A stretch of 44,187 bases of DNA from a bacterium (lineage in GTDB: Bacteria; Bacillota_I; Bacilli_A; RFN20; CAG-826), in the NCBI GenBank assembly GCA_029098125.1, contig JAQXNS010000135.1, positions 1 through 44,187 on the forward strand, written 5' to 3'. Under the pieces are notes generated by a model. It was not told the origin of the DNA. It did no database searches and saw only the letters and a list, made by a program, of their open reading frames with translations. The number at the start of each line of letters is the position of its first letter. The first letter of the stretch is position 1. This document shows positions 25,760 through 42,754 of the stretch, one piece after another. The translations under genes and the position numbers were made by a program.

Positions 25760-25996
25760 AACTAATCTTGCAACGACGAAGACATGTTGCTTTAACCTTT
25801 ATATTATTAGAGAAAGAAACATTTGGTGAAAGTTTCTAATATAAAATCTAGCAAAACTACTTCCGAGCATTTAAGGAAACTTAACGATTAAGCTATCGAC
25901 AAAGTTAGAATGAAGTGATTAAGATTTTTTTCTTAATAACTAAGGTGGTACCACGTAAATAATGCGTCCTTAGAGTTTATCTCTAAGGACTTTTTT
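25760..25996 (+). promoter_or_regulatory. T-box leader upstream of thrS
   Basis: Stem I-like GAGAAAGAAACATTTGGTGAAAGTTTC; candidate specifier ACT in AAAACTACTTCCGAGC; T-box AAGGTGGTACCACG (25942-25955); terminator GTCCTTAGAG-TTTAT-CTCTAAGGAC-TTTTTT (25966-25996). Confidence 0.93.
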
Positions 25997-26012: not shown

Positions 26013-27941
26013 ATGGAATTAAAATTACTCGATGGAAAAATTTTAAATTTAGAAGAAGGTAAAAATGGTCATGATGCAGCACTATTAATCAGCGAAGGTC
26101 TTGCTAGAAATTCACTTGCTTACAAACTTAATGGTGAACTTTTTGATCTATACACACCAATTAAAGAAAGTGGCGAGTTTGTCATTATAACTTCAAAAAG
26201 TGAAGAAGCTAAAGATATTTTAAATCACTCCGCTGCTCATTTAATGGCAGAGGCTATATCCTTATTATATAAAGGTGTGAAATTTGGTGTCGGCCCTGCA
26301 ATCGAAGAAGGTTTTTATTATGACGTTGATTTTAACGGTTATGTCTTAAAAGAAGAAGATTTAGCAAAAATCGAAGCAAAAATGAAGGAACTTTCAAAGA
26401 AAAACGAATATATCGTTAGAAAAAACGTCTCAAAAGAAGAAGCTTTAGAAATTTTTAAAAATGATGAATACAAAAAAGAATTAATTAATGAATTAGAAGG
26501 AAATATTTCTATTTACAAACAAGGTGAATATATAGATTTATGTCGTGGACCTCATGTTCCATCAACTGGTTTTATAAAATATTTCCATCTTGATAATATT
26601 GCTGGTGCATATTGGAGAGGCGATTCTAAAAATAAACAACTAACAAGAATTTATGGTGTTGCTTCATTTTCAAAAGAAGAACTTGAACATATTTTATTCA
26701 TTAGAGAAGAAGCAAAGAAAAGAGATCATAGAAAAATTGGTAAAGAACTTGGCTTATTTACAATTTCAGAGTATGGTCCAGGTTTCCCATTCTATTTACC
26801 AAATGGTTTAATGCTTAGAAGACAAATTGAAAACTGGTGGTATGATATTCATGATGAATACGGATACAAATTAATCAAGACTCCAATTATGTTATCAAAA
26901 GAGCTTTGGTTAACAAGCGGTCACTGGGACCACTACAAAGAAAATATGTACACAACAAAGATTGATGATAGAGACTTTGCAATCAAACCAATGAACTGCC
27001 CTGGATCAATTCTTGTTTACAACAATGAACTTCATTCATACAAAGATCTTCCATTAAGACTTGGTGAATTAGGTCTTGTTCATAGACACGAAGCAAGTGG
27101 AGCTTTAAATGGTTTATTCAGAGTTAGATGTTTCACTCAAGATGATGCTCATATTTTCTGTACACGTGATCAATTAAAATCTGAAATCGAAACATTATTA
27201 AAACTTTACGACAAAATTTACAGTGTTTTTGGCTTAAAATATTCTATCGTCTTATCAACAAAACCAGAATCAGACTATATTGGAGATGATGCAATCTGGG
27301 AACAAAGCGAAAAAATCTTAGCTGATGCATGTAGAGCAACAGGAAAAGATTTTAAAATTAATCCTGGTGATGGCGCTTTCTATGGTCCAAAACTTGATTT
27401 TAAACTCAAAGATTGTATGGGTAGAATTTGGCAATGTGGAACAATTCAACTCGATATGAATCTTCCAGAAAGATTTGATTGCACATATATCAACTCAAAA
27501 GGTGAAAAAGAAAGACCAATCATGCTTCATAGAGCAATTCTTGGTTCATTTGAAAGATTTATTGGTATCATCACAGAGAATTTTGCTGGTGCTTTCCCAA
27601 CATGGTGTGCTCCACTTCAAGTCAAAGTTCTTCCTGTAAACGACGAAGTTCATAGCGAATATGCAAATCAAGTCGTTAACACTTTAAGAAAACACAAAAT
27701 TAGAGTTGAACTTGATCCAGCAAGTGAAAAATTAGGGTACAGAATGAGAAATGCTCAAATCAAGAAAATCCCTTACACACTTGTTATTGGTGACAAAGAA
27801 AAAGAAAATAATGCTGTAACATATAGAAAATATGGATCAAAAGATCAAATCACAGTTTCTCTTGATGAATTCATTAAGTTAATTGAAAACGAAATTGAAA
27901 CTAAAGCATTATTAATCGATCCAGAAAAGATGGCTTTATAA
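26013..27941 (+). CDS. thrS: Threonyl-tRNA synthetase
   Basis: TGS domain, HSAAHLMAEA, PMNCPGSILVY, RVRCFTQDDAHIFC, anticodon-binding C-terminus; AGGAGG RBS. Confidence 0.98.
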   Translation: MELKLLDGKILNLEEGKNGHDAALLISEGLARNSLAYKLNGELFDLYTPIKESGEFVIITSKSEEAKDILNHSAAHLMAEAISLLYKGVKFGVGPAIEEGFYYDVDFNGYVLKEEDLAKIEAKMKELSKKNEYIVRKNVSKEEALEIFKNDEYKKELINELEGNISIYKQGEYIDLCRGPHVPSTGFIKYFHLDNIAGAYWRGDSKNKQLTRIYGVASFSKEELEHILFIREEAKKRDHRKIGKELGLFTISEYGPGFPFYLPNGLMLRRQIENWWYDIHDEYGYKLIKTPIMLSKELWLTSGHWDHYKENMYTTKIDDRDFAIKPMNCPGSILVYNNELHSYKDLPLRLGELGLVHRHEASGALNGLFRVRCFTQDDAHIFCTRDQLKSEIETLLKLYDKIYSVFGLKYSIVLSTKPESDYIGDDAIWEQSEKILADACRATGKDFKINPGDGAFYGPKLDFKLKDCMGRIWQCGTIQLDMNLPERFDCTYINSKGEKERPIMLHRAILGSFERFIGIITENFAGAFPTWCAPLQVKVLPVNDEVHSEYANQVVNTLRKHKIRVELDPASEKLGYRMRNAQIKKIPYTLVIGDKEKENNAVTYRKYGSKDQITVSLDEFIKLIENEIETKALLIDPEKMAL

Positions 27942-27944
27942 AAA

Positions 27945-28409
27945 GTGAAAACTAACGTAATGAGAATACTTGATTCAAATAATATCAAGTATTCTCAATA
28001 TGAATATGAAGCAAATCAATCATTAACTGGTGAAGAAATCGCTTCAATTTTACATGAAGATGTTAAATCAGTATTTAAAACTTTAATAACAAAAGGAAAA
28101 AGTAATGACTATTATGCCTTCATGATTCCAGTAAATAAAGAATTAGATTTAAAAAAGGCAGCAAAGACAGTTTGTGAAAAAAGTGTTGAAATGATTCCTT
28201 TTAAAGATCTATTAAAAATTACTGGTTATGTTCATGGAGGATGTTCACCACTTGGATTAAAAAAAGACTACCAAGTTTCAATTGACGAATCTGTTTTAGC
28301 TTTAGAAGAATTATATTTTTCTGGAGGTAAAGTTGGTGTTCAAGTCAAAGTTAAAGTTGATGATTTTTTAAATCTAGCACATCCAAAAATAGCAGACCTT
28401 GTAAAGTAA
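27945..28409 (+). CDS. ybaK: YbaK/EbsC-type Cys-tRNA(Pro)/Cys-tRNA(Cys) deacylase (GTG start)
   Basis: KTNVMRILDSNNIKYSQYEYE, DVKSVFKTLITKG, GGCSPLGLKK. Confidence 0.9.
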   Translation: MKTNVMRILDSNNIKYSQYEYEANQSLTGEEIASILHEDVKSVFKTLITKGKSNDYYAFMIPVNKELDLKKAAKTVCEKSVEMIPFKDLLKITGYVHGGCSPLGLKKDYQVSIDESVLALEELYFSGGKVGVQVKVKVDDFLNLAHPKIADLVK

Positions 28410-28668: not shown

Positions 28669-29313
28669 TTATTTTTCTTCTTTATCCTTTTCATCTTCAT
28701 CAGCATCGTCTTTAAATTTTGCTTTAATTAAAGCTGAAGCATGTTTAATTCCAAACACAACACTTATGAATGATAGAACAAGATAAACAATACTTGATAA
28801 AGTTATAAATGATTGAATTGAACTATTAGCATTAAATACTTCAAAAAATTGTTCTTTTTCAATAGAACCAGTCGATGATACATACTCGCCAATTAAAGTG
28901 GTTGCATCGCTAAGTTTTAGACTTGCAGCAATTGCAACAAAACTAACAATAATTAAGCAAACAAACATAGTGAAAAATACCACTAATTTATAATATTTGT
29001 TAATTAAAACAGATAATTGGCATTCTTTATCAACTTTTTTATAAAACAGATCAGCTGTAACAATTAATGAAATGCTACCAGCTATTACAAAAATTGCTCC
29101 TATATAATAAAGGATTTGTGGCATAGCACGATCAGATAAATATTGATTAAATTGTGCCATAAATGCATCACCATCAATTGATCCAATTGAAGTAGCTGTT
29201 TCAACTAAAGTTGAACCAGAAGATAATAATAATGAAGCTGAAATTAATAATAATATAAATCCAAGCAAATAAATAGCAGCAAAAACTGAACTTGCAATAA
29301 TTTTCTTTTTCAT
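28669..29313 (-). CDS. Four-TM membrane protein with internal duplication, unknown function
   Basis: Start MKKKIIASS at 29313, adjacent to malG; two repeats, each a GSI[DE]-containing loop plus TM segments. Confidence 0.7.
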   Translation of the reverse strand: MKKKIIASSVFAAIYLLGFILLLISASLLLSSGSTLVETATSIGSIDGDAFMAQFNQYLSDRAMPQILYYIGAIFVIAGSISLIVTADLFYKKVDKECQLSVLINKYYKLVVFFTMFVCLIIVSFVAIAASLKLSDATTLIGEYVSSTGSIEKEQFFEVFNANSSIQSFITLSSIVYLVLSFISVVFGIKHASALIKAKFKDDADEDEKDKEEK

Positions 29314-29317
29314 ACTA

Positions 29318-30253
29318 TTATCCTTTAACTGCTCCGGCAGTAACACCTTCAACATAATATTTTTGTAAGAACATAAACAATGTAACAATTGGAATTCCTA
29401 CAACGACACAGCCTGCAGCAAATTTAGTAAATAAGTTAATATCTGCGAATGTACCAAATAGCATATCATAAAGGCCAACAGAAACTGTCCAATATTCAAC
29501 ATTAGTTGGACCAATAATAACTCTAGCAAAGATGAAATCCATCCAAGGACCCGTAAAACTCATCAAAGCTGTATAAATAATAATTGGTTTTGATAAAGGT
29601 AAAATGATTGATTTAAAAATCTTAAAGTTTGAGCATCCATCTAATTTAGCACTTTCAACAAGTGAGTTAGGTATAACATCAAAGAAACCTTTTGCAACTT
29701 GGAATCCTAATCCACTACCAGCACTATATGCAATAATAATACCAAGAATTGCTAAACTAGGTTGGTCTTGGTTTGCGACTAATCCGATTGATTTAAGCAA
29801 AAAGTAAATAGCAATCATTGACATGAAACCTGGAAATAATCCAAGAATCATTGCTAGATTCATAAATGGCTTTCTCATTTTGAATTTCAATTTTGACATA
29901 CAGTATGCAACACTCAAAATTAAGAAAGTTGAAATAAGACAACAACAAACAGCTACAAGAAGTGTATTTCCCATCCATCTTAAAAATGCATGTTCAATGC
30001 CGTTATAAGTCATATTAAATAAATCAGCAAAATTTTTAAAGCCAACAGTTGAAGGAATAAAACCGCTAGTAACAGCACCAATAAATGTTCCGTCTTTATA
30101 TTCAGTTCTAAATGCACTACATGCGACCCAGAAAATTGGAATAATCCAGATAATCGAAAGAATCAATAATATGACATATGTAGCGCTTAAAGAAGCTATT
30201 TTACTTCTTTTTTGACTTTTATATTTTTGTCTTTTGTAAGGATCATTTATCAT
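29318..30253 (-). CDS. malG: Maltodextrin ABC transporter permease, MalG-like
   Basis: Permease EAA motif SLVESAKLDGCSNFKIFKSIILPLSKPI; C-terminus QKYYVEGVTAGAVKG. Confidence 0.9.
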   Translation of the reverse strand: MINDPYKRQKYKSQKRSKIASLSATYVILLILSIIWIIPIFWVACSAFRTEYKDGTFIGAVTSGFIPSTVGFKNFADLFNMTYNGIEHAFLRWMGNTLLVAVCCCLISTFLILSVAYCMSKLKFKMRKPFMNLAMILGLFPGFMSMIAIYFLLKSIGLVANQDQPSLAILGIIIAYSAGSGLGFQVAKGFFDVIPNSLVESAKLDGCSNFKIFKSIILPLSKPIIIYTALMSFTGPWMDFIFARVIIGPTNVEYWTVSVGLYDMLFGTFADINLFTKFAAGCVVVGIPIVTLFMFLQKYYVEGVTAGAVKG

Positions 30254-31716
30254 TGGAATGTGTCCTCCTCATTATAAGCTTTACTTCTTCGATATGTAAT
30301 CAAAGTAATTGTTGAAGTAATCATAAAGGTGATAATACCAATAACAGCGCCTGTATTATATTCCCCATTATCAATAGTTAATTTATATAACCATGTAACA
30401 AGTAAGTCAGTACCGCCAGCTTGATATCCAACATATGTTGGTCCACCACCTGTTAAAAGGAATATTGTATTAAATGAGTTAATATTACCAACAAATGATG
30501 AAATTAAATATGGGGTTGTAATAAAGACAACATAAGGTAAAGTTATTTTGAAAAACATTTTGGTTTTACTAGCACCATCAACTGTAGCAGCTTCATACAA
30601 ATCTGCAGGAATATTCATCAAAATACCGCTAGTCATTAACATTGTATAAGGAATACCAAGCCACATATTAACAATAATGACTACAACCTTTGCTACATAT
30701 TCATTATCTGATGCACTTAATCCTAAGAAACCAATTGGTTGATCAATCCATCCCAAAGATTGAAGTAATGAATTAACAGGACCATATTCACCTAAAAGAT
30801 TTCTCATAGATAATAAAGAAATAAATTGAGGAATTGCTATAGTTAAAATAAAGATTGTTCTAAAGACTTTTTTGCCCATTAAACCTTTTTTATTAATGAG
30901 AATAGCTAATAAAATTCCACCAAAATAACATGTTAATGTTGCTAGAATTGCCCATATAAATGTCCATCCAAGAACAGGTAAGAATCTAGCTTTAATTTCA
31001 GAACCTAATTGGCTCTCGCCAGTGAACATATAAACAAAATTACTAAAACCATTCCAATGGAACAAAACCGTTCCTTCAGCATTCATATCAAATTGATTAT
31101 ATGTAGTAAATGCCATACAAATCATAAAGATTGTAGGCAAAAGTGTGAACACTAAAGCAGCCAAACATGTTGGAGTAAGCATCAAAACATGGAATTTTGA
31201 ATCTAATAATGCTTTTAAATCATCTTTAAAAGTAGTAGGTTTTTTGCCTTTTTTTGCTTCTAAATCAGCTTTATATGATGATCCAATGTTACTAATCCAA
31301 ACAAGCAAATATAATATTATGATTGCGATAGTAACAAGACCAAACAACAACATTAATTGGTCATTGCTAGGTTGGGTCATCTCACCTGTCATTGGATCAA
31401 AGTCACCACCTTCACTGCCTCCTAATCTTAAATTTATTAAGGCTTTAAATCCGTAAGGGGTTCCATTAATTTCTGGACATAAAACCATAAAAAGAATAAA
31501 GAGCACTTGAAGGAAAAGATACATTGCACCTTTGACATATTGCCCATGATAGAAGGAACCACTTCCCATAATGAAATGGGATAGTTTGGTTCCTATACTG
31601 CCATCAACAAATCGTTTATGAAAATTGACAAAGAAGCTTTTGAATGAAGAAAAGAATGTAACAAAAGGATTTGGCTTTTTAACTTTTTCTTCTTTTCTCG
31701 TCATTTCGCTTTTCAT
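30250..31716 (-). CDS. malF: Maltodextrin ABC transporter permease, MalF-like, with N-terminal membrane extension
   Basis: EAA motif PADLYEAATVDGASKTKMFFKITLPYV, NSFNTIFLLTGGGPTYVGYQAGGTDLLVTWLYKLTID. Confidence 0.92.
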   Translation of the reverse strand: MKSEMTRKEEKVKKPNPFVTFFSSFKSFFVNFHKRFVDGSIGTKLSHFIMGSGSFYHGQYVKGAMYLFLQVLFILFMVLCPEINGTPYGFKALINLRLGGSEGGDFDPMTGEMTQPSNDQLMLLFGLVTIAIIILYLLVWISNIGSSYKADLEAKKGKKPTTFKDDLKALLDSKFHVLMLTPTCLAALVFTLLPTIFMICMAFTTYNQFDMNAEGTVLFHWNGFSNFVYMFTGESQLGSEIKARFLPVLGWTFIWAILATLTCYFGGILLAILINKKGLMGKKVFRTIFILTIAIPQFISLLSMRNLLGEYGPVNSLLQSLGWIDQPIGFLGLSASDNEYVAKVVVIIVNMWLGIPYTMLMTSGILMNIPADLYEAATVDGASKTKMFFKITLPYVVFITTPYLISSFVGNINSFNTIFLLTGGGPTYVGYQAGGTDLLVTWLYKLTIDNGEYNTGAVIGIITFMITSTITLITYRRSKAYNEEDTFQ

Positions 31717-31770
31717 TGTAATTTCCCTCCTTTCATTGATTAATTATTTATGTAAAAGTAAATTAATTTA

Positions 31771-33219
31771 TTATTCGATTGCTGCAGGTAATGAAGTTGG
31801 AATTGATGCTGGGTTTTTACCTTTTAACCAAATATAGTTCATCATGTATAAACCTTGTCTAATACCAGAAACTTCAGCTGTATTTGTTACAAGAGCAGTA
31901 CCTGTTGTTGGATAATTACTCTTAACAGCCATAGCAGCATAAATAGCTGGTGCAGATTTTGAATAATAGTAAGTATTTAATGTACCTGTAATGAAAGGTT
32001 GTGGTATACCCCAAGCACCCATTTCAACTTGAACTTTAGCAATATCATATTGACTTTGTGTTACTTTACCATCATTAAATAATTGATCAATTTGTGCACT
32101 TGCAGCTGTTGCTGAAGGAACAATTGTTTGTTTTTCAAATGCACTAGTTTGCATTTCAACTGATGAAAGATATTTAACTAAAGCTTGTTGTGCTAAGTAT
32201 TTGCTTGAATCTGTATTTGCATTAAGCATGAAAACTTTACAATCAGCAAATGATCCACCACGATAAACATCGCCGGCTTTAACTACATTATTATCTAATC
32301 CAGAAACGTTATTTTCAGTTAATGTGAATGTAGGAATTAATGCAACACCTAAATTTGCTTCACCAATAGCACTTGCAACTGCATTTTTAGCCCAAGAACC
32401 ATTGATAAGACCTAAACATGCACCATTTTGTAAATCTTTTTCCCAACCATCGCTAGAAGCAAATTTGAATCCATTTGGATTTTCTAAAGCATCTTGTACC
32501 CATCTTAAAGTAGCGATTCTATCATCACCTTGGCAATATGCTTCACCTTTTGTTCCGCCAGCTTCAGCACTAGCACCTTCATATAATTTTAAAGATGTGT
32601 AATGATCGCTAACTCTTGTTGAAAGTATTGACCATGAGAAATTGTATCCATCAGCACCATCACTTGAAGGAACAGTCCAGCCTTTACAATTATTTCTTTT
32701 TGCAGCTGCCATAATACCTTCAAATGATTTTACTTCTTCATCAGAAATTTTTGTTTTATCGTAATATAAGAAACATGCTTGTGAAATATATGGAGCAGCA
32801 TAAAGTGCTTGTTTTCCATTAACAATTGATTTGCAAACATCAACGAAAGTTGTTGGGTTATCAGTTTCAATTTGAGTTACAAGTGAAGTTTCACTGATTG
32901 GTTTTGCACATTTTGCAGCAGCAAGTTTACCAACATTATCGTGAGCAACAGTATAAATGTCGCCAGCTGCTTTTGGGTCTTGTGTAATAGTTCCAGCAAT
33001 ACTACCAACATCTGTACCTTTAACTATGATTTGGTAGTCAGCATAAGGATTGCCTTCTTGAGCAAGCCAAGCATCACATGCAGCTTGATAAAATTCAGCA
33101 GTACCTTCTTCGTTACCAACCCAAACTGTTAATTTTTTATCAGCGCCACCACAGCTTGTTGTTCCGCTGACCAATAAGATTGATAATGCACTAAGCATAA
33201 ATAATTTGTTTAATTTCAT
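31771..33219 (-). CDS. malE: Maltose/maltodextrin-binding lipoprotein, MalE-like
   Basis: Lipobox SGTTSC, KLTVWVGNEEGTAEFYQAACDAW, GSWAKNAVASAIGEANLGVALIPTF. Confidence 0.88.
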   Translation of the reverse strand: MKLNKLFMLSALSILLVSGTTSCGGADKKLTVWVGNEEGTAEFYQAACDAWLAQEGNPYADYQIIVKGTDVGSIAGTITQDPKAAGDIYTVAHDNVGKLAAAKCAKPISETSLVTQIETDNPTTFVDVCKSIVNGKQALYAAPYISQACFLYYDKTKISDEEVKSFEGIMAAAKRNNCKGWTVPSSDGADGYNFSWSILSTRVSDHYTSLKLYEGASAEAGGTKGEAYCQGDDRIATLRWVQDALENPNGFKFASSDGWEKDLQNGACLGLINGSWAKNAVASAIGEANLGVALIPTFTLTENNVSGLDNNVVKAGDVYRGGSFADCKVFMLNANTDSSKYLAQQALVKYLSSVEMQTSAFEKQTIVPSATAASAQIDQLFNDGKVTQSQYDIAKVQVEMGAWGIPQPFITGTLNTYYYSKSAPAIYAAMAVKSNYPTTGTALVTNTAEVSGIRQGLYMMNYIWLKGKNPASIPTSLPAAIE

Positions 33220-33233
33220 TTTTTTCTCCTTTT

Positions 33234-34016
33234 TTATTCTTTTACAATCGGACTATAAGATTTTGACTCAATTAACATAGTTCCACTTATAAAGTCTCTA
33301 ATTGTTCTATATTTTTTATTCAAAATTGTTATGATGAAAGAAATAACCATATAACATAAAATTCCAATCATTCCAGATGCTAAGTAAGGCAATAAAGTTT
33401 CTACAATGAGAATATACATAAATCTAAATAATACATGATACCACCTAGCACAAGACATTCTCTTAATTGCAAATAATTCGACTCCGCACAACATTTGTCC
33501 TATTGTTGACCTTTTTTTATTAATTAAAGGAACAACTAGAAATAGTAAAGTTTCAGTAATTAAGAATGATAATGCAACTAGAGTGAAACTATGCAAATCA
33601 TAACTAAATTTTAAATCCCTGAATTTTTGTTCGCTCATTTTATTTGTATAAGCTTCAATAATTTCAGGTGTTAATTGATTTTTATCAATATTTTGTACTA
33701 TATAGTTTTTATCCGCATCATCTTTATACACATAGTAATTTTGATCTTGGTATGATTTAACTTCGTTTTCCTCGATATATTTAATATCTCCATAACCAGT
33801 TTCTAATTTTGCTTTATCGCTATAAAGAATCATTTCTTCTTTATATTTATTTAAGTTATTAGCAATAGGTGTATTGATTGCTAATAAATTTAAACAAAAG
33901 AATAAAACAAATGTGATTGATACGTCAGCTAGATAGGATAAAATCCTTTTAATTAACATGGGTTTCGAATTTGGTTCAATGTCAATTGGAATATTCTGCT
34001 TGATTTTTTCTTCCAT
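33234..34016 (-). CDS. RDD-family membrane protein
   Basis: KPMLIKRILSYLADVSITFVLFF, NKKRSTIGQMLCGVELF, later hydrophobic segments. ORF track permits start at 34025; MEEKIKQ at 34016 avoids the malK overlap. Confidence 0.75.
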   Translation of the reverse strand: MEEKIKQNIPIDIEPNSKPMLIKRILSYLADVSITFVLFFCLNLLAINTPIANNLNKYKEEMILYSDKAKLETGYGDIKYIEENEVKSYQDQNYYVYKDDADKNYIVQNIDKNQLTPEIIEAYTNKMSEQKFRDLKFSYDLHSFTLVALSFLITETLLFLVVPLINKKRSTIGQMLCGVELFAIKRMSCARWYHVLFRFMYILIVETLLPYLASGMIGILCYMVISFIITILNKKYRTIRDFISGTMLIESKSYSPIVKE

Positions 34017-34018
34017 AA

Positions 34019-35929
34019 TTAGCAAATCTTCATGTCAATATTTGTTGAATAAATGCTAATCTTATCTCCTGGAATGTTAATAAATAATACATCACCAACA
34101 TTATAATTCTTATTTTTAATTAAGAATTTTTGTTCATTTGCTTGAACTAATGCATATTTATTAACTCCATAGTCAAGAATGTCAACTACTGAAACTCTTA
34201 AGCCATCACTTTCAGAGTCAGTAACTTCAACATCATTCATATTTGCGACATATTTATATGTACGTTTGTAGCAATTATTTCCCTCAATTGCGTTCATCTT
34301 GTAACCACTTTCTGTTAAAAGAGAGAACTTTTTATTTTCAATAACTGCATGGAAATAATATTTTCTAATTGTTTTATTGTATGTTGGACTTGATTCGTCG
34401 GTATCAACTTCTCTTAATTCTTCTTTATCAAATGTTCCTAACAATGAAATTTGATCATTGATTTCTTCTAAGCAAATCTCATTATCAGAAGTGACTTTAA
34501 CCTTATCAAATAAAATATCGAATGAATAAGAGTCATTAACTTTAACTTCATCGTCAACAAGTGCAAAAAGATAACGATTTCCAAATTGAAGATAAGCTAA
34601 ATTTTTATCATTAATTTTTTCGATCTTATCAACTTTTAAAGAATAAGTAGAGCCTCTTACGATAGCATAAGGAGGTACCTCAATATCAAGATTTTTATTA
34701 TCACAAACTCTTGTAAGTTGAGCTGGAGCATCGATTTCGACATCTAAGAAAGTAAGTTTTCCTTCAGAAATTTTTGCGCTGAATTTTGAATAACTTGGTA
34801 TCTTGCTTAATAAAGTAACCTCTGTTTCTGCATCAAAGAAATGAACTTTATCAATAATTGGTGAAATTCTAACTTTATCGCCAACGTTAATATTAGTGCC
34901 CTCAATTACCTTGACAATAATTTTGTTGCCTTCATCTTTTAATGAGAAATCTTGTTCTACTCCGCCAAGTTCACCATAAGCTATACATTCATTACCTAAA
35001 TGTTCGACGTTTGTAATCACGCATTCTAGACCATCTTCACTCAAAACTAGATGTTCTGGTCTTATGCCAAATATGACTTTTTTACTTCCATGTAAATAAT
35101 CATCATGTATCTTTGATAATTTTTCATAAGGTAAAACAATTTTTGAATCATTTTCAAATATTACTTCAACAATATCATTAATTCTATTTAATGTGACATT
35201 AAAGAAGTTCATTTGTGGAGTGCCAATAAATCCTGCAACAAACTTATTATAAGGTTCATTATAAAGATTCATAGGTGTGTCAATTTGTTGTACATACCCT
35301 TTTTTCATAACAACAATTCTAGTTCCCATTGTCATAGCTTCGACTTGGTCGTGGGTAACATAAATAAATGTTGTCTGTAGTTTTTTGTGTAATTTAGTGA
35401 TTTCTGTTCTCATTTGGGCTCTTAATTTAGCGTCCAAATTTGAAAGAGGTTCATCAAGTAAAAATACTTTAGGATCACGAACAAGAGCACGACCAAGTGC
35501 AACTCTTTGTCTTTGACCTCCACTCATTGCTTTAGGTTTACGATCCAAATATTCCTCGATATCCAACATTTTAGCAGCTTCTAAAACTTTTTCTTTAATT
35601 TCCGCTTCTGGCAAATGCCTATTGCGTAAACCAAAGGCCATATTTTCATAAACTGTCATGTGTGGATAAAGAGCATAACTTTGGAAAACCATAGCAATGT
35701 CACGATCTTTTGGTTCCATATCATTAACCAAAGTGTCCCCAATAAATAAATCGCCAGCTGTGATTGTTTCAAGTCCAGCAATCATTCTTAAGGTAGTTGA
35801 TTTGCCACATCCACTAGGTCCGACGAAAACAATGAACTCTTTATCAGCAATATCGATACTAAAATCGTTAACTGCTTTGTGTCCATTATCATATACCTTG
35901 TAGATATGACTTAATTTAAGATTAGCCAT
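34019..35929 (-). CDS. Sugar ABC transporter ATPase (MalK/MsmK-like) with long C-terminal extension
   Basis: Walker [46 protein letters not shown] region; 636 aa versus about 370 typical. Confidence 0.92.
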
Positions 35930-35972
35930 ACGTTCCTCCTATATGCTTAAAATACGAAAATAAAATATAATA

Positions 35973-35991
35973 AAACTCTAAAAAAGAGTTT
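35973..35991 (-). terminator. Weak hairpin between small membrane gene and malK
   Basis: AAACTC-TAAAAAA-GAGTTT; T-rich downstream on minus. Confidence 0.4.
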
Positions 35992-35993
35992 AA

Positions 35994-36398
35994 TTACCTA
36001 ACTACGATTCCTTTCTTTTCAAATCTGAACAAAAATTCACCGATGAGGGGGTCAAAACTTGGCAAACTACCAAACTTTTTACCATCTTTATCATAAATAA
36101 TATAAAAATCATCTATTAAAACCACATCTTTAATATTTGAAATTTTGATCTTCTTTTTAATAAATAGAATATGATTAATTAAATATTCGCCATCAATTTC
36201 TAGGTAATGAAATAATTGATCAGCGATTATTGGTATTGCACAAATAATAAATATTGAACAAAATACGTAAACTACTAAACCTATCGAACTGTAAGATTCA
36301 AAAATTGCACATAAAACAATAGTTATTATGCAGATGCTCATAACAATAGAACTAAAAATTACAGGTCTTTTTTGAATTGTAGTACGTACTTTATTCAT
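35994..36398 (-). CDS. Small two-TM membrane protein, PH-like C-terminal fold possible
   Basis: 134-aa ORF, two hydrophobic helices, located 4 nt downstream of pullulanase. Confidence 0.6.
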   Translation of the reverse strand: MNKVRTTIQKRPVIFSSIVMSICIITIVLCAIFESYSSIGLVVYVFCSIFIICAIPIIADQLFHYLEIDGEYLINHILFIKKKIKISNIKDVVLIDDFYIIYDKDGKKFGSLPSFDPLIGEFLFRFEKKGIVVR

Positions 36399-36402
36399 AT
36401 TT

Positions 36403-39198
36403 TTAAATCTTTTGAAGAATTATTGATTCATTTAAATCAAGTTTAAAGTTGCCACTAACAACGCTACCTTTTTCGTGTTTTGAATTATTTGATAACAATA
36501 TTTTATATTCACCATCAAGAGAAATAGAATTTTCACTTCCAGCGTGGAAAACGAAAATATTTTCTTTTCCTTCGCTACTCATATCAACATTAAAACTGAT
36601 AACATTATTCGCAACGCTAACATTCTTTAAATATTTGTTTATATCTTCACGATTTGGCAAAGATAAACCATCTAATTGTTTTCTTAAAGCAATTAAATCT
36701 TTGAAATATTTATAAGTATCTTCATTTTTAATTTTTAAAGAATAATCCATGTTATTAATGTTATCGCCAACATTATATGAATTTCCCTCATATTTTATAT
36801 TTCCATTTTCGTCTTCATACTCTTTTGTTCGTTTAAACTCTTCACCTTCTTGAAGGAATGGAACTCCTTGAGATGTAAAAACAATAGATTCAGCTTGTGT
36901 ATATTGCATATCTAAGTTTGAATTGTATTTTTGTTGAATCAATTGATCATATAATGTGTAATTGTCATGGCAAGAAGCATAATTAATAACTTGTTGTGGT
37001 TCGATGTTTTTAGATTTCTCATCTTTTGTTGAAAAAGCACCAGTAATACCCATTAGTATTGAGTTTGCTAAATAATTAGCTCCGCTTACCCAGCCTAAAC
37101 CAGGAGCATTGTCACCTCTAATTGCATTTCTAATTACATCGTTAAATGCACCAACATAAACTCCATCACCTGCGAAATATGATTGAGAAAGTGAAGATTG
37201 AACAGTTTTTTGACTTGTTAATTTCTTTGGATCAGTTCCATCAACTAACTTTGAAGTTCCACCAGTCCAAGGTTCACCATAAACCATAATATCCTTATTT
37301 ATAGCAGATAAATCTTTATAAACATCAATCATAGTTTGATTATCAAGTAAACCCATTAAATCAAATCTAAAACCACTAATTCCATATTCTTCAACCCAGA
37401 ATTTGCATGATTCTCTAATGAATTTATTAACCATGAATCTTTCACTTGCGACTTCGTTTCCACATCCTGAACCGTTAGAATATTCGCCGCTTCTGCTTGT
37501 TCTATAATAATAATAAGGAACGAGCGTTGTAAAACTGCTTCCTTCTGTTGAACCTGTATGATTATAAACAACATCCATGTTGACGTTAATTCCATTATTA
37601 TGTAATGCTGTCATCATTTGTTTAAATTCTTTTACTCTTGAGTATCCATCAGCAGGATTTAAAGAATAGCTTCCTTCTAAACAATTATAATTTTGTGGAT
37701 CATATCCCCAGTTATAATTTGTGTCCTTCATTGAAGTAGAAACATTACTCTCATCAACAGAATTGTAATCATATGATGGCATAATTTGAACATGGCTTAT
37801 TCCTAAATCTTTTAAATGATCTAAGCCTGTTGAAACTGTTTTACCACCTTCTGTATATGTTGTTCCAGATTCAGTTAAACCTAAGAATTTACCTCTGTAT
37901 TCTTCTTTAACACCACTATTTTCATTGATGGTCATATCTCTAATATGCATTTCATAAATTGATGCATCAGTTCCGTTTTCGCCAAAATTGACTGGAGTTT
38001 TATCATAGAACATTTCAGCATTAATCTTATTAAAGTTAATTACCATGCCTCTTTTGCCGTTTAACCCAGCTGATTTAGCGTATGGATCGATTATTTCGTT
38101 AACACCTTTTGAATTAGTAACTGTGTATGTATAATAAACGCCATCTAAATTTCTTGAAACTGTTGTTTCAAAAATACCTTTTTCTTTTCTTGTCATATCA
38201 ACAACTTCAATTGGCGTTTTGTCATTTATATAATCACCTGTTTTATATAAATTTAATTTCATTGAACTGCTTGTTGGAGCCCAAACTTTGAATGTAGTTG
38301 CTTTTGGATTAGAATCATTATCAAAAGATGCACCCAAATCGTCAGATGAATAATTATACTTCTCCCCAAATTCTTCAGTATCAAAATATGAAGTGACCAT
38401 GACCGTTTTCTTATCAGTCCAATCATTATCAAATTTATATGTAACTTCAATTGTAGAGGATAAATCAATTTCATTATTTAACTCAATAGTTAATTTTTTG
38501 GATTTTTCATTATATTCACCAAGTGAGTACTCTGTAATTGGATTACCATCAACAAAAACATTTAGTCTCTTACTATAAGGCTTAAATGTTGTTGAGTAAG
38601 GAGCAAAATAAACGCTAAATATTTTAGATGATTCTAAAACACATGTATTCATTTTTGCTTTTAACGCATCGTCCTTGTTAGTGTAAATATCCATTGCTCC
38701 ACTCTTTGAGTAGATATCCATAAATCCACCAAGAGAAGTTTTGCTAACTTCAATTGAACGATCATTATCAGGGTCTTTTTTCCAATCTTCAGTAGTGACT
38801 AAAAAACCAATAACTTTGGCTTCTTTTTCCCCAGTAACTTTATCTAAAGGAACATCAACAAAAACACCAAAGTCATCATAATATTCAAATGGGTAAAAAG
38901 CTCCATTGCCTCCATTTGTAATATCCCAAGCCCAAATTCCATAACCTTGATATGGGCTTCTATTATTTGCTAAATCATCTTTTCTGCGGTAATGAAATCT
39001 AATTTTTGTTGTTGTTTCTTCAACTAATTTTGAATAATCAGTTGTATCTTTTTTGTATGTTGAAACTACATCACTATCATTTGGTGATATTAATTGTTCA
39101 TATGGTTCATCAGGTCCCATTCCAGAATCAGCACATCCAGAAATTAGGCCAACAGGTAACAATAAACTTAACAATAAAACATTTAATCTTTTTTTCAT
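36403..39198 (-). CDS. pulA: Pullulanase lipoprotein (type I, GH13, CBM41-like N-terminus)
   Basis: Lipobox LISGC; FHYRRKDDLANNRSPYQGYGIWAWDI; YNWGYDPQNY; GISGFRFDLMGLLD; VYGEPWTGG; NYASCHDNYTL. Confidence 0.93.
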   Translation of the reverse strand: MKKRLNVLLLSLLLPVGLISGCADSGMGPDEPYEQLISPNDSDVVSTYKKDTTDYSKLVEETTTKIRFHYRRKDDLANNRSPYQGYGIWAWDITNGGNGAFYPFEYYDDFGVFVDVPLDKVTGEKEAKVIGFLVTTEDWKKDPDNDRSIEVSKTSLGGFMDIYSKSGAMDIYTNKDDALKAKMNTCVLESSKIFSVYFAPYSTTFKPYSKRLNVFVDGNPITEYSLGEYNEKSKKLTIELNNEIDLSSTIEVTYKFDNDWTDKKTVMVTSYFDTEEFGEKYNYSSDDLGASFDNDSNPKATTFKVWAPTSSSMKLNLYKTGDYINDKTPIEVVDMTRKEKGIFETTVSRNLDGVYYTYTVTNSKGVNEIIDPYAKSAGLNGKRGMVINFNKINAEMFYDKTPVNFGENGTDASIYEMHIRDMTINENSGVKEEYRGKFLGLTESGTTYTEGGKTVSTGLDHLKDLGISHVQIMPSYDYNSVDESNVSTSMKDTNYNWGYDPQNYNCLEGSYSLNPADGYSRVKEFKQMMTALHNNGINVNMDVVYNHTGSTEGSSFTTLVPYYYYRTSRSGEYSNGSGCGNEVASERFMVNKFIRESCKFWVEEYGISGFRFDLMGLLDNQTMIDVYKDLSAINKDIMVYGEPWTGGTSKLVDGTDPKKLTSQKTVQSSLSQSYFAGDGVYVGAFNDVIRNAIRGDNAPGLGWVSGANYLANSILMGITGAFSTKDEKSKNIEPQQVINYASCHDNYTLYDQLIQQKYNSNLDMQYTQAESIVFTSQGVPFLQEGEEFKRTKEYEDENGNIKYEGNSYNVGDNINNMDYSLKIKNEDTYKYFKDLIALRKQLDGLSLPNREDINKYLKNVSVANNVISFNVDMSSEGKENIFVFHAGSENSISLDGEYKILLSNNSKHEKGSVVSGNFKLDLNESIILQKI

Positions 39199-39206
39199 AT
39201 TTTCTC

Positions 39207-41195
39207 CTAAAAGCCACTAGCATCAAAAAAGCCTTTTTTTAGAGCTTCACCCTTGATATCAACGGATTGTTTGATAATATTTTCATCCCATTTTTGTGTG
39301 TTTTCAATTACATAATCTTTATTAAACAATCCTAATAAGAATCCAGTATATCCACTGACATCTATTAATAAAATATTATTTTCATATGTGTAATCTTTAT
39401 GCCATTTACTTGGCTCCCAACTCCAAATATATAGCTCGTTTTGCTCGAAATATATAGGATTTAGATTTATTACGTTAAAATATCCATCAATTAAAGTAAT
39501 TTTGTTAAAGACAAATCTTCTAGTTTTTGAATTATTACCATTTTTAACAACAATATTTAAAACCTCTTCATTATTTATAACATGATCTCCAATAGTAATA
39601 TTCACTTTTTCATTGAAACTCACTTTTGATGATTCATCATCGTTAAAATAATAGAAACTCTCGCTAGCATTTGAGGTTTTTAATTCTACATTTAATTTAT
39701 CAGCAAAGCTCTCACCTCTGCTAGAAATTGTAAAACTTGGTCGTGGTAAAACATGGCTTCTAACCAAATAGCAAATTCCTGATTGATCAAAATTGATAGT
39801 TGCAGTTTTGGACGAAACAACAACTTTTGAACCAGTAACTAAATCATAATAATTTCCATCACTTAAATGATTAAATTTTACAGTTTTTGTATAATTTTTC
39901 TTCTCAGCGTCAATATTTAATACATACGCGCCATCATCTTCCTCGCTATATCTTTCATTTACAAAAACTAAATCATCACTTTCAGAATGTAAATCTTCTT
40001 CAGCTCCTATAAAACGATTATGGAATCTATTTGCAGAAGCAACCAATTCACTTTCGAATCCATAAGAACCTATTTGTCCAACATCAATATTTGCATTTGG
40101 TCTTGCTAAAAATAAAGCATTGATTCCTTTTCTAGAAGCAATAACACCCCATTCTTTTGCAACACGAGTTTCATTAATATGAGTTGAGGATTCAACATAA
40201 GTATCGTGACTTTCAACCCAAGTAATAACCTTGCTTACATCAACATTTTTGCCATATTGTGCATTACAAATAGCGTCTGCGCTTTTTGAAGAAACAACGC
40301 CTTTATGAACACCTTGAATATAACCATCACATGTTACATCCATCATGTTAGCATATAAATTAATATCTCTTTCTAAAGGATTGTTTAGAACTTCTCCATA
40401 AGCGTACAATTCTTTATTTTCTTTTTCTTTATAATAATCTTTTGCTGCTAATAAAGTGTTTTCCCAAAAATTACTAGGATAATCCTTGTCTTGACTCGTC
40501 TCAATATGTTTTGCAGCATCAAACCTAAATCCATCGATTCCAGCATCTATGCATTCTTTTAAATAAGATAAACATCTTTCTTGAACGTATGGATTTCCAG
40601 TATTTAAATCTGGTAGCTTTCCATATGGGTAATATTGTGTTTCTGCCCCGCTTCCTGTGGCATTCTTATTATGATGGAAAGTAGATGTATCCCCTTTATC
40701 ATTACGATGTTCATAAATATAAGGTTCATATTCACCTACTTTTGGAGAAACTTTTGGTGTTCCGTCGTCTTCCAAATCATCATCGCTGATATTTGCCATA
40801 TGATTAAAAACTACATCGCAATATATTGAAATACCATATTTATCGGCTTCAAGACATAATTCTTTCAACTCTTCTTTGGTGCCTAAACTACTTGAGGAAG
40901 CAATAGAAAAACTTAAAGGTTGATAAAAACTCCACCACGTAGATCCACCATTTTTTGGAGTTTGCAATGGCATAGTTAAAATAGATTTAAAACCAGACTC
41001 ATATATTCCAGGTAAATTATCTTTAATTTGTTTAAACGTCCAACAAAAAGCATGTAAAGTCAAACCATCATCATTGTTTTGAGGTAATTTTTCAACATAA
41101 TTATCTTCAAAATCTTCATATGATTTTGAACAAGATACAGAAATTATTGGCAAAGTTAATGCCAACCCTAGAAAAATATAATGTTTTAGTTTCAT
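39207..41195 (-). CDS. Alpha-amylase lipoprotein (GH13, AmyE-like)
   Basis: Lipobox ISVSC; DVVFNHMAN, GIDGFRFDAAKHIE, YGEVLNNP, WVESHDTYVE; GGAG RBS supports ATG at 41195 over the TTG at 41207. Confidence 0.92.
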   Translation of the reverse strand: MKLKHYIFLGLALTLPIISVSCSKSYEDFEDNYVEKLPQNNDDGLTLHAFCWTFKQIKDNLPGIYESGFKSILTMPLQTPKNGGSTWWSFYQPLSFSIASSSSLGTKEELKELCLEADKYGISIYCDVVFNHMANISDDDLEDDGTPKVSPKVGEYEPYIYEHRNDKGDTSTFHHNKNATGSGAETQYYPYGKLPDLNTGNPYVQERCLSYLKECIDAGIDGFRFDAAKHIETSQDKDYPSNFWENTLLAAKDYYKEKENKELYAYGEVLNNPLERDINLYANMMDVTCDGYIQGVHKGVVSSKSADAICNAQYGKNVDVSKVITWVESHDTYVESSTHINETRVAKEWGVIASRKGINALFLARPNANIDVGQIGSYGFESELVASANRFHNRFIGAEEDLHSESDDLVFVNERYSEEDDGAYVLNIDAEKKNYTKTVKFNHLSDGNYYDLVTGSKVVVSSKTATINFDQSGICYLVRSHVLPRPSFTISSRGESFADKLNVELKTSNASESFYYFNDDESSKVSFNEKVNITIGDHVINNEEVLNIVVKNGNNSKTRRFVFNKITLIDGYFNVINLNPIYFEQNELYIWSWEPSKWHKDYTYENNILLIDVSGYTGFLLGLFNKDYVIENTQKWDENIIKQSVDIKGEALKKGFFDASGF

Positions 41196-41253
41196 AAACA
41201 ACTCCAAAAGTTATCAATTTTATAGTTAATAAAAATTTATTATTTTTTAAAAA

Positions 41254-41379
41254 CTCATAAACTTAATATCTAATTTATGAGTAGCAGATAAGAGTTCTAA
41301 ACTATTGGTTTAGCATTTACAAAATTATGTTAAGCCAATAATATAAAACTCTTGCCTTATCATTTAAAAACTCATATCG
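41254..41379 (-). promoter_or_regulatory. Structured leader of alpha-amylase gene, candidate transcription attenuator
   Basis: TATGAGT (41376-41370) can pair with ACTCATA (41282-41276), which also forms the 5' arm of a CTCATAAA/TTTATGAG + TTTTT hairpin (41281-41254); a ~75-nt imperfect hairpin lies between. Confidence 0.55.
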
Positions 41380-41438
41380 AATTTACTATATATAATTTAT
41401 TTAATAATAAATTTTTAAAATTTATAACCTAAAAATGA

Positions 41439-41454
41439 GGTGCTATAAAGCACC
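41439..41454 (-). terminator. Terminator of starch-binding lipoprotein gene
   Basis: Minus strand GGTGCT-TTAT-AGCACC-TCATTTTT. Confidence 0.75.
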
Positions 41455-41468
41455 CCATTAAAGATTAA

Positions 41469-42485
41469 TTAAGCAGCTTTAGTAACTGTGATTTTAGCGC
41501 TAGCATCAGCAGCAAATTCACCAATTGTAATTGTATATGAACCAGCTTCTGTTATCTTGATATTTGCATCATTTGCAGCATCAGATGCAACGCCAAGTAA
41601 TGTTTTACTAGCGTCATCTAATCTTCCTGCGCCCCAGTTAACAGTCCAATCAGCATCAGCTCTAATTTTCCATTCATCGTTAGCAGCAAATTCAACTGTA
41701 GCACTAAATGCTGTATTATCTGCATTTGCAGTTAATGAAACATCAGTATTCCAACCAGATGCAGCAAAACTACCAATGACACCATATGTATGTTCAGCAG
41801 CTTTCCATTCTTTAACTTCTTCATATCCGTCAACTTCGCTAGTAATTTCGCTATCTTTAATTAAGCCAACACCATATCCTGGTTTTCCTTCACCACCAGC
41901 AAATTTAACACCATAAACTGTATATGATCCAGAACCGCCAATGCAAACTGGATTGCTTGCCCATGAGAAACCGTTCTCATCTGCAGCTTCTTGGAATGCA
42001 GGCATAAATAATGTGTCTGGTGTTAAGCTAATTGCATAAGCTGTATGTGGATCTGGTATCCATTGTGTAACTGACCAAACTTCATCAACTTCATCATATG
42101 AAGCTTCACCAACTTTAATAGCAAATGAACCATTACAATTAACTTTTTTATCTTCTTTCATAGCTTGTGCTGTCCAACCAGCGTCTTTTGCACCAAGTCT
42201 AACATCAGATAATTTTACTCCGTATTGAATTTCATTATCTCCAGCTGCTGTTTTAATAGCTTCTGGTAATTCGCTTGCTTTAACAGCTGTCATTAAGTTT
42301 ATTACATTACCATTATCGTCTAATGCAGCGTCCCAAGCTGAGTCATGTTCGCCAACTTGGAATTGTCCTAATGCTAACCATTTTGCATCAAGTGGTTGCT
42401 CTGATGGTTGTTTGTTACATCCTGTAATACCAAGAATTGCAGCTGCGCCTAAAACAGCAATTTTTACTAATTTAACTTTTTTCAT
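41469..42485 (-). CDS. Surface lipoprotein with SusE/SusF-like starch-binding C-terminal region
   Basis: Lipobox GITGC; YGVIGSFAASGWNTDVSLTANADNTAFSATVEFAANDEWKIRADADWTVNWGAG resembles SusE/F or X25-type modules; ATG preceded by AGGAGG. Confidence 0.7.
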   Translation of the reverse strand: MKKVKLVKIAVLGAAAILGITGCNKQPSEQPLDAKWLALGQFQVGEHDSAWDAALDDNGNVINLMTAVKASELPEAIKTAAGDNEIQYGVKLSDVRLGAKDAGWTAQAMKEDKKVNCNGSFAIKVGEASYDEVDEVWSVTQWIPDPHTAYAISLTPDTLFMPAFQEAADENGFSWASNPVCIGGSGSYTVYGVKFAGGEGKPGYGVGLIKDSEITSEVDGYEEVKEWKAAEHTYGVIGSFAASGWNTDVSLTANADNTAFSATVEFAANDEWKIRADADWTVNWGAGRLDDASKTLLGVASDAANDANIKITEAGSYTITIGEFAADASAKITVTKAA

Positions 42486-42564: not shown

Positions 42565-42582
42565 ATGTAAGTGCTTACATTA
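42565..42582. promoter_or_regulatory. cre-like palindromic operator upstream of starch-binding lipoprotein
   Basis: AATGTAAG-TG-CTTACATT; TGTAAGTGCTTACA differs from a cre pattern (TGTAAnCGnTTACA) at one position. Confidence 0.6.
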
Positions 42583-42754
42583 TATTCATCCTTAAAAAAG
42601 AAAACAAGATAAAAACATAATTTTACTTAACTAAAAACATAGATTTGATGTTTTTTATCTTTTTACTGGTAATACTTTCTAATGTATCGTTTCAATATAT
42701 ATACATTATAAAAATTTATACATAAAAATTTATAATCATATTATAATTTAAAGC

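Follow-up and report, generated by a model that had tools for sequence, protein, structure and literature searches.

Competing pairings in a hairpin-rich spacer between a SusE/SusF-like lipoprotein gene and an alpha-amylase gene of a Bacilli_A bacterium

Internal terminators that follow binding-protein genes set the stoichiometry of ABC operons, as established experimentally in Clostridia (PMC9045158). The folding energies of these terminators range from −38.3 to −10.1 kcal/mol and their efficiencies from 20.7 to 96.1% (PMC9045158). In addition, Vibrio is known to make an sRNA from a malK 5′ UTR (PMC8265627). Here, we analyzed a spacer between two genes of a putative starch-use locus and compared it with such systems.

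The window, that is, the whole stretch of DNA analyzed, comprises 44,187 nucleotides of contig JAQXNS010000135.1 (assembly GCA_029098125.1). The element under study is the minus-strand spacer between a SusE/SusF-like lipoprotein gene (41469–42485, minus strand; Pfam PF16411) and an alpha-amylase gene, whose start region (41193–41207) was assigned from the sequence, the ORF, and PF00128 and contains GGAG at 41205–41202 and ATG at 41195–41193. The amylase ORF (39207–41207, minus strand; PF00128) opens a co-oriented run of genes (28669–41207, minus strand; ORF list and Pfam) that encodes, in order, the amylase, a pullulanase, a 134-aa protein, a MalK-like ATPase, an RDD protein, a 482-aa protein, two permeases, and a last, unassigned product. 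The 482-aa protein, which occupies the position of a binding protein in the run, had no Pfam match. The MalK-like ATPase (34019–35929, minus strand) carries an extra C-terminal region of ~270 aa past the TOBE domain, also without a Pfam match. The SusE/SusF-like domain is known from starch binding at the outer membrane of Bacteroidota; here it is carried by a lipoprotein in a lineage of Gram-positive type and is linked with amylase and pullulanase in several genera. Elsewhere in the window, a T-box leader (25764–25974, plus strand) precedes a threonyl-tRNA synthetase-like gene (26013–27941), followed by a gene with an aminoacyl-tRNA editing domain (27945–28409).

Reading the minus strand 5′ to 3′, the spacer begins with a strong terminator-like hairpin directly 3′ of the SusE-like gene (41459–41434, about −16 kcal/mol). 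An A+T-rich stretch follows, in which the preliminary description had seen a −10-like hexamer, TATAGT; the hexamer is present (41390–41385), but it has no recognizable −35 partner. Downstream of it lie TATGAGT (41376–41370), the upstream P1 or antiterminator-like strand; a long imperfect hairpin (41353–41290) that folds equally well on either strand; and ACTCATA (41282–41276), a shared segment that can pair with 41376–41370 or within a second terminator-like hairpin. This second hairpin and its T tract (41282–41249), formed by ACTCATAAATT and AAGTTTATGAGT, have 11 pairs, including two G-C pairs, and a folding energy of −9.5 kcal/mol. Its layout is ACTCATAAATT...AATTTATGAGT-TTTT, with the stem at 41282–41253 and TTTT thereafter (T5 when the last stem base is included), and ~57 nt separate it from the amylase start codon (A at 41195). 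All of the pieces named in the preliminary description, from TATAGT through the two competing strands and the long hairpin to the terminator-like hairpin and T tract, were found where it had placed them. Sequence comparison also revealed an exact 14-nt direct repeat, TATGAGTTTTTAAA, at 41376–41363 and at 41259–41246, the second copy containing the T tract. The two copies flank 103 nt, hold both TATGAG copies, and reach past the pairing segment (p = 0.004). The competing copy could thus have arisen through a small duplication.

The two alternative structures on the minus strand consist of TATGAGT paired with ACTCATA around the long hairpin (P1) and of ACTCATAAATT folded into the 11-pair hairpin with T5 after it. 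When transcripts of increasing length were folded computationally at equilibrium, P1 was about 90–96% formed while the 3′ end of the transcript was up to 41257, and the terminator-like hairpin was ~97% formed from transcript end 41253 onward. The proposed mutually exclusive antiterminator and terminator pairings are thermodynamically coherent, with a calculated changeover between these two transcript ends. Because P1 dominates first and the terminator-like hairpin thereafter, the attenuator proposed in the preliminary description is possible, although, given the terminator, the competitor reaches only p ~0.03–0.07.

We compared the strength of folding with that expected by chance. The minimum free energy was −34.6 kcal/mol (z = −4.5), and none of 200 shuffles folded as well. 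Among the 10 intergenic regions longer than 100 nt in the window, the spacer had the strongest fold, exceeding the tRNA and T-box regions. A terminator-like hairpin accompanied by a competitor ≥7 nt long upstream of it was obtained in 0 of 3,000 dinucleotide shuffles of the spacer, and most of the significance of this combination is due to the hairpins. When a terminator-like hairpin was present, a competitor of at least 7 nt occurred in 7.3% of shuffles, and the duplex energy was matched in 2.8% (p ~0.03). Among 69 terminator-like hairpins of the compared loci, three, including the present one, had such a competitor. These results indicate that the hairpins are far from chance; the case for the alternative pairing, on which a switch would depend, is weaker. 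Of seven window hairpins compared, the second hairpin had the lowest stability per base. The plus strand folded with equal significance, and G-U asymmetry was absent; thus, the sequence carries no sign of selection on the minus-strand RNA.

Searches for relatives of the element were performed at several levels. Rfam 15 cmscan of the window and of 41150–41480, at the gathering score and with E up to 5, gave no family match in the spacer, which excludes a known RNA family at these thresholds. Only two chance miRNA matches, both under the gathering score, were returned for the element with E up to 5; as a positive control, the scan of the window recovered the T-box and two tRNAs. A covariance model built from the single sequence, termed R1, which has limited reach and loses distant relatives, retrieved this locus only, along with its own palindromic opposite strand, from the genome itself and from 26 genus, 224 family, and 395 sampled class genomes; the other matches in the genus had E values of 0.13 or worse. 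This outcome is to be read as an absence of detectable relatives rather than proven uniqueness. A conserved aptamer recurring in several genomes, as expected of a riboswitch, was likewise not found by R1 in the genus, family, or sampled class, and the suggestion of a riboswitch aptamer is not borne out by these searches, in which neither an Rfam family nor a second copy was found. DNA searches of the 26 genus genomes gave short A+T-rich matches only, and no similar DNA was found in phage and plasmid records. The 15-mer GATAAGGCAAGAGTT occurred in 106 stretches of IMG/VR, which was judged to be about chance level, and R1 applied to 80 of these 106 stretches gave a single weak match (23 bits, E = 0.19). 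A multi-copy or mobile hairpin repeat was rejected because the genome holds a single copy.

Thirteen amylase orthologues, 45–51% identical, were found in other genera of the family, and the lipoprotein-amylase order is kept at 10 of these 13 loci, in eight genera. In nine of these 10 loci, the spacer is 62–145 nt long, with a hairpin and T tract after the lipoprotein stop codon and a short segment upstream of the ATG that often resembles an extended −10; the spacer of the tenth (L039) is longer and different. The hairpin at 41459–41434 has a counterpart that sits likewise after the lipoprotein gene in the orthologous loci. An arrangement of lipoprotein gene, predicted terminator, and amylase gene is common across the family. 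R1 found nothing in the 10 loci, and the alternative pairings, whose loss from orthologous leaders the preliminary description had named as the outcome that would speak against it, are absent at the one distance compared (amylases 45–51% identical, other genera). The genus DNA search, R1, and the orthologous amylase leaders together gave no conserved leader. Because the module that follows the first hairpin is absent from orthologous spacers and from the R1 searches of the genus, family, and sampled class, it appears to be specific to this species among the sequences compared. A scan of genome contigs for closer orthologues yielded one distant Ruminococcus locus, and an order-wide search yielded no more. 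The amylase itself is absent from the other genus members examined, and its nearest relatives, ~50% identical, are in other genera, which suggests horizontal transfer or repeated loss.

As for transcription of the spacer, a good promoter-like site, TTGTTT-17-TATAAT with the −10 at 42584, precedes the lipoprotein gene, and no promoter-like site within the spacer scored above the shuffle median; the scoring used approximate frequencies taken from general knowledge. For this reason, read-through from the lipoprotein promoter is the simplest assumption, and the amylase mRNA may plausibly include the spacer in this way. In several orthologues, however, a promoter-like extended −10 is found near the amylase ATG, so that the amylase may have a transcript of its own; a start near the ATG seems likely for the orthologues and may also be used here. 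Just past the TATAAT, over the start region, lies a perfect 16-bp palindrome of the LacI/CcpA type, ATGTAAGTGCTTACAT (42565–42580), and a second perfect TGTAAGCGCTTACA core is found elsewhere in the genome (G000:C138:7535). Upstream of orthologous lipoprotein genes, this operator has no clear counterpart, perhaps with the exception of locus L096.

We tentatively favor, with a probability of about 0.42, a lineage-specific enlargement of an internal terminator or hairpin region that would lower downstream expression without ligand sensing. Polymerase starting at the lipoprotein promoter would first meet the strong hairpin at 41459–41434, and polymerase that reads through would then meet the extra module, composed of the long stable hairpin and the weak terminator-like hairpin at 41282–41249. 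Together, the hairpins would cut transcription of the amylase gene and those that follow it and would also shield or process the end of the lipoprotein mRNA, and P1 would at most slow the second hairpin. Both terminator-like hairpins lie between the lipoprotein gene and the downstream genes, as expected of internal stoichiometry terminators; we infer that either could terminate, with an efficiency that would govern the effect on stoichiometry, and that the spacer may in this manner set the ratio of lipoprotein to amylase, pullulanase, and ABC transporter. The family-wide gene order with, in nearly all of the 10 loci, one strong hairpin and T tract argues for this reading, as do the distribution of promoter-like sites, the strength of the hairpins relative to chance, and the precedent in Clostridia (PMC9045158). 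On the other hand, the orthologues manage with one terminator and nothing shows that the extra module is selected, the extended −10 near several orthologous ATGs may uncouple the amylase, and the competitor segment and the 14-nt repeat would be superfluous. The second hairpin also falls a little short of the least stable published internal terminator, and the published partner is an ABC binding protein rather than a SusE-like lipoprotein.

The exclusive pairings and their sharp calculated switch, with a combination of hairpin and competitor that none of the 3,000 shuffles reproduced, would be accounted for by a regulated transcription attenuator located before the amylase and maltodextrin-transporter genes: P1 would close the long hairpin as an antiterminator, and when P1 is not stabilized by a ligand or protein, the ACTCATAAATT terminator would stop transcription before the amylase. 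We consider this, the main rival reading, less likely, as the competitor alone reaches only p ~0.03–0.07, the terminator is weak, the opposite strand folds as well, and neither an Rfam match nor a homologue was found in the genome, the genus, the family, the sampled class, or the orthologous leaders. Antitermination of the LicT type was rejected, as the CAT_RBD antiterminator protein gave zero matches in the genome (92% complete), and the same search was positive in E. coli, B. subtilis, and two others. Because no second instance exists anywhere in the sequences searched, a small-molecule riboswitch makes up only a small part of the attenuator reading, and its own chance is slim. It is also very unlikely that, in this one species, transcription of the amylase and maltodextrin-transporter genes is tied to a signal derived from starch by a riboswitch or protein-controlled attenuator that is new and narrowly distributed. 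For a gut-type uncultured lineage, a true sugar-responsive RNA switch would be an uncommon way of controlling starch use. The absence of the element from orthologous spacers, the 14-nt repeat, and the strand-neutral fold with no G-U asymmetry are also consistent with a lineage-specific palindromic insertion or duplication relic at the DNA level that has no RNA function. Such a relic is unlikely: the single genomic copy does not fit a multi-copy mobile repeat, the hairpin stops short of the repeat borders, and neutral hairpins of this strength should decay. Finally, the compact stable fold, the terminal T tract, and the −10-like hexamer 7 nt before 41378 would suit a small RNA of ~130 nt with its 5′ end near 41378 and its 3′ end at the T tract (41249), produced from TATAGT or by processing of the lipoprotein 3′ UTR and either acting in trans or persisting as a stable decay product, for which the Vibrio sRNA offers a precedent. 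We regard this as improbable, given the absent −35 and the absence of homologues even within the genus. As the evidence stands, the element is probably an ordinary species-specific spacer with strong hairpins.

Compared with described systems, the element resembles attenuating riboswitches and T-box leaders in that one segment, located before metabolic genes, can pair into either an upstream helix or a terminator-like hairpin, whereas it differs from them in having no Rfam match, no conservation, no recognized junction core, and an A+T-rich terminator. As in the RAT of LicT/SacY-type systems, the leader of a sugar operon contains a hairpin and a terminator that share sequence, the 3′ strand of the former with the 5′ arm of the latter, but the cognate protein was not found in this genome and the element measures ~100 nt versus ~30 nt. 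In the msiK motif (Weinberg 2010, PMC2864571), too, sugar-import genes are preceded by a long hairpin that has a large bulge (11 nt, versus 12 nt here). This motif, however, precedes msiK genes and has a basal stem that covers the ribosome-binding site, whereas the stem of the present element, for which Rfam gave no match, is in competition with a terminator-like hairpin. The internal terminators of Ruminiclostridium cellulolyticum ABC importers (PMC9045158) differ in the upstream gene, which is SusE-like here, and the present spacer has two terminator-like hairpins, the second weaker, plus a long extra hairpin of putative function. With these terminators, the spacer shares a T-tailed hairpin and a long spacer that follow the gene of an exported protein, the binding protein in their case, and precede the rest of a sugar-uptake operon.
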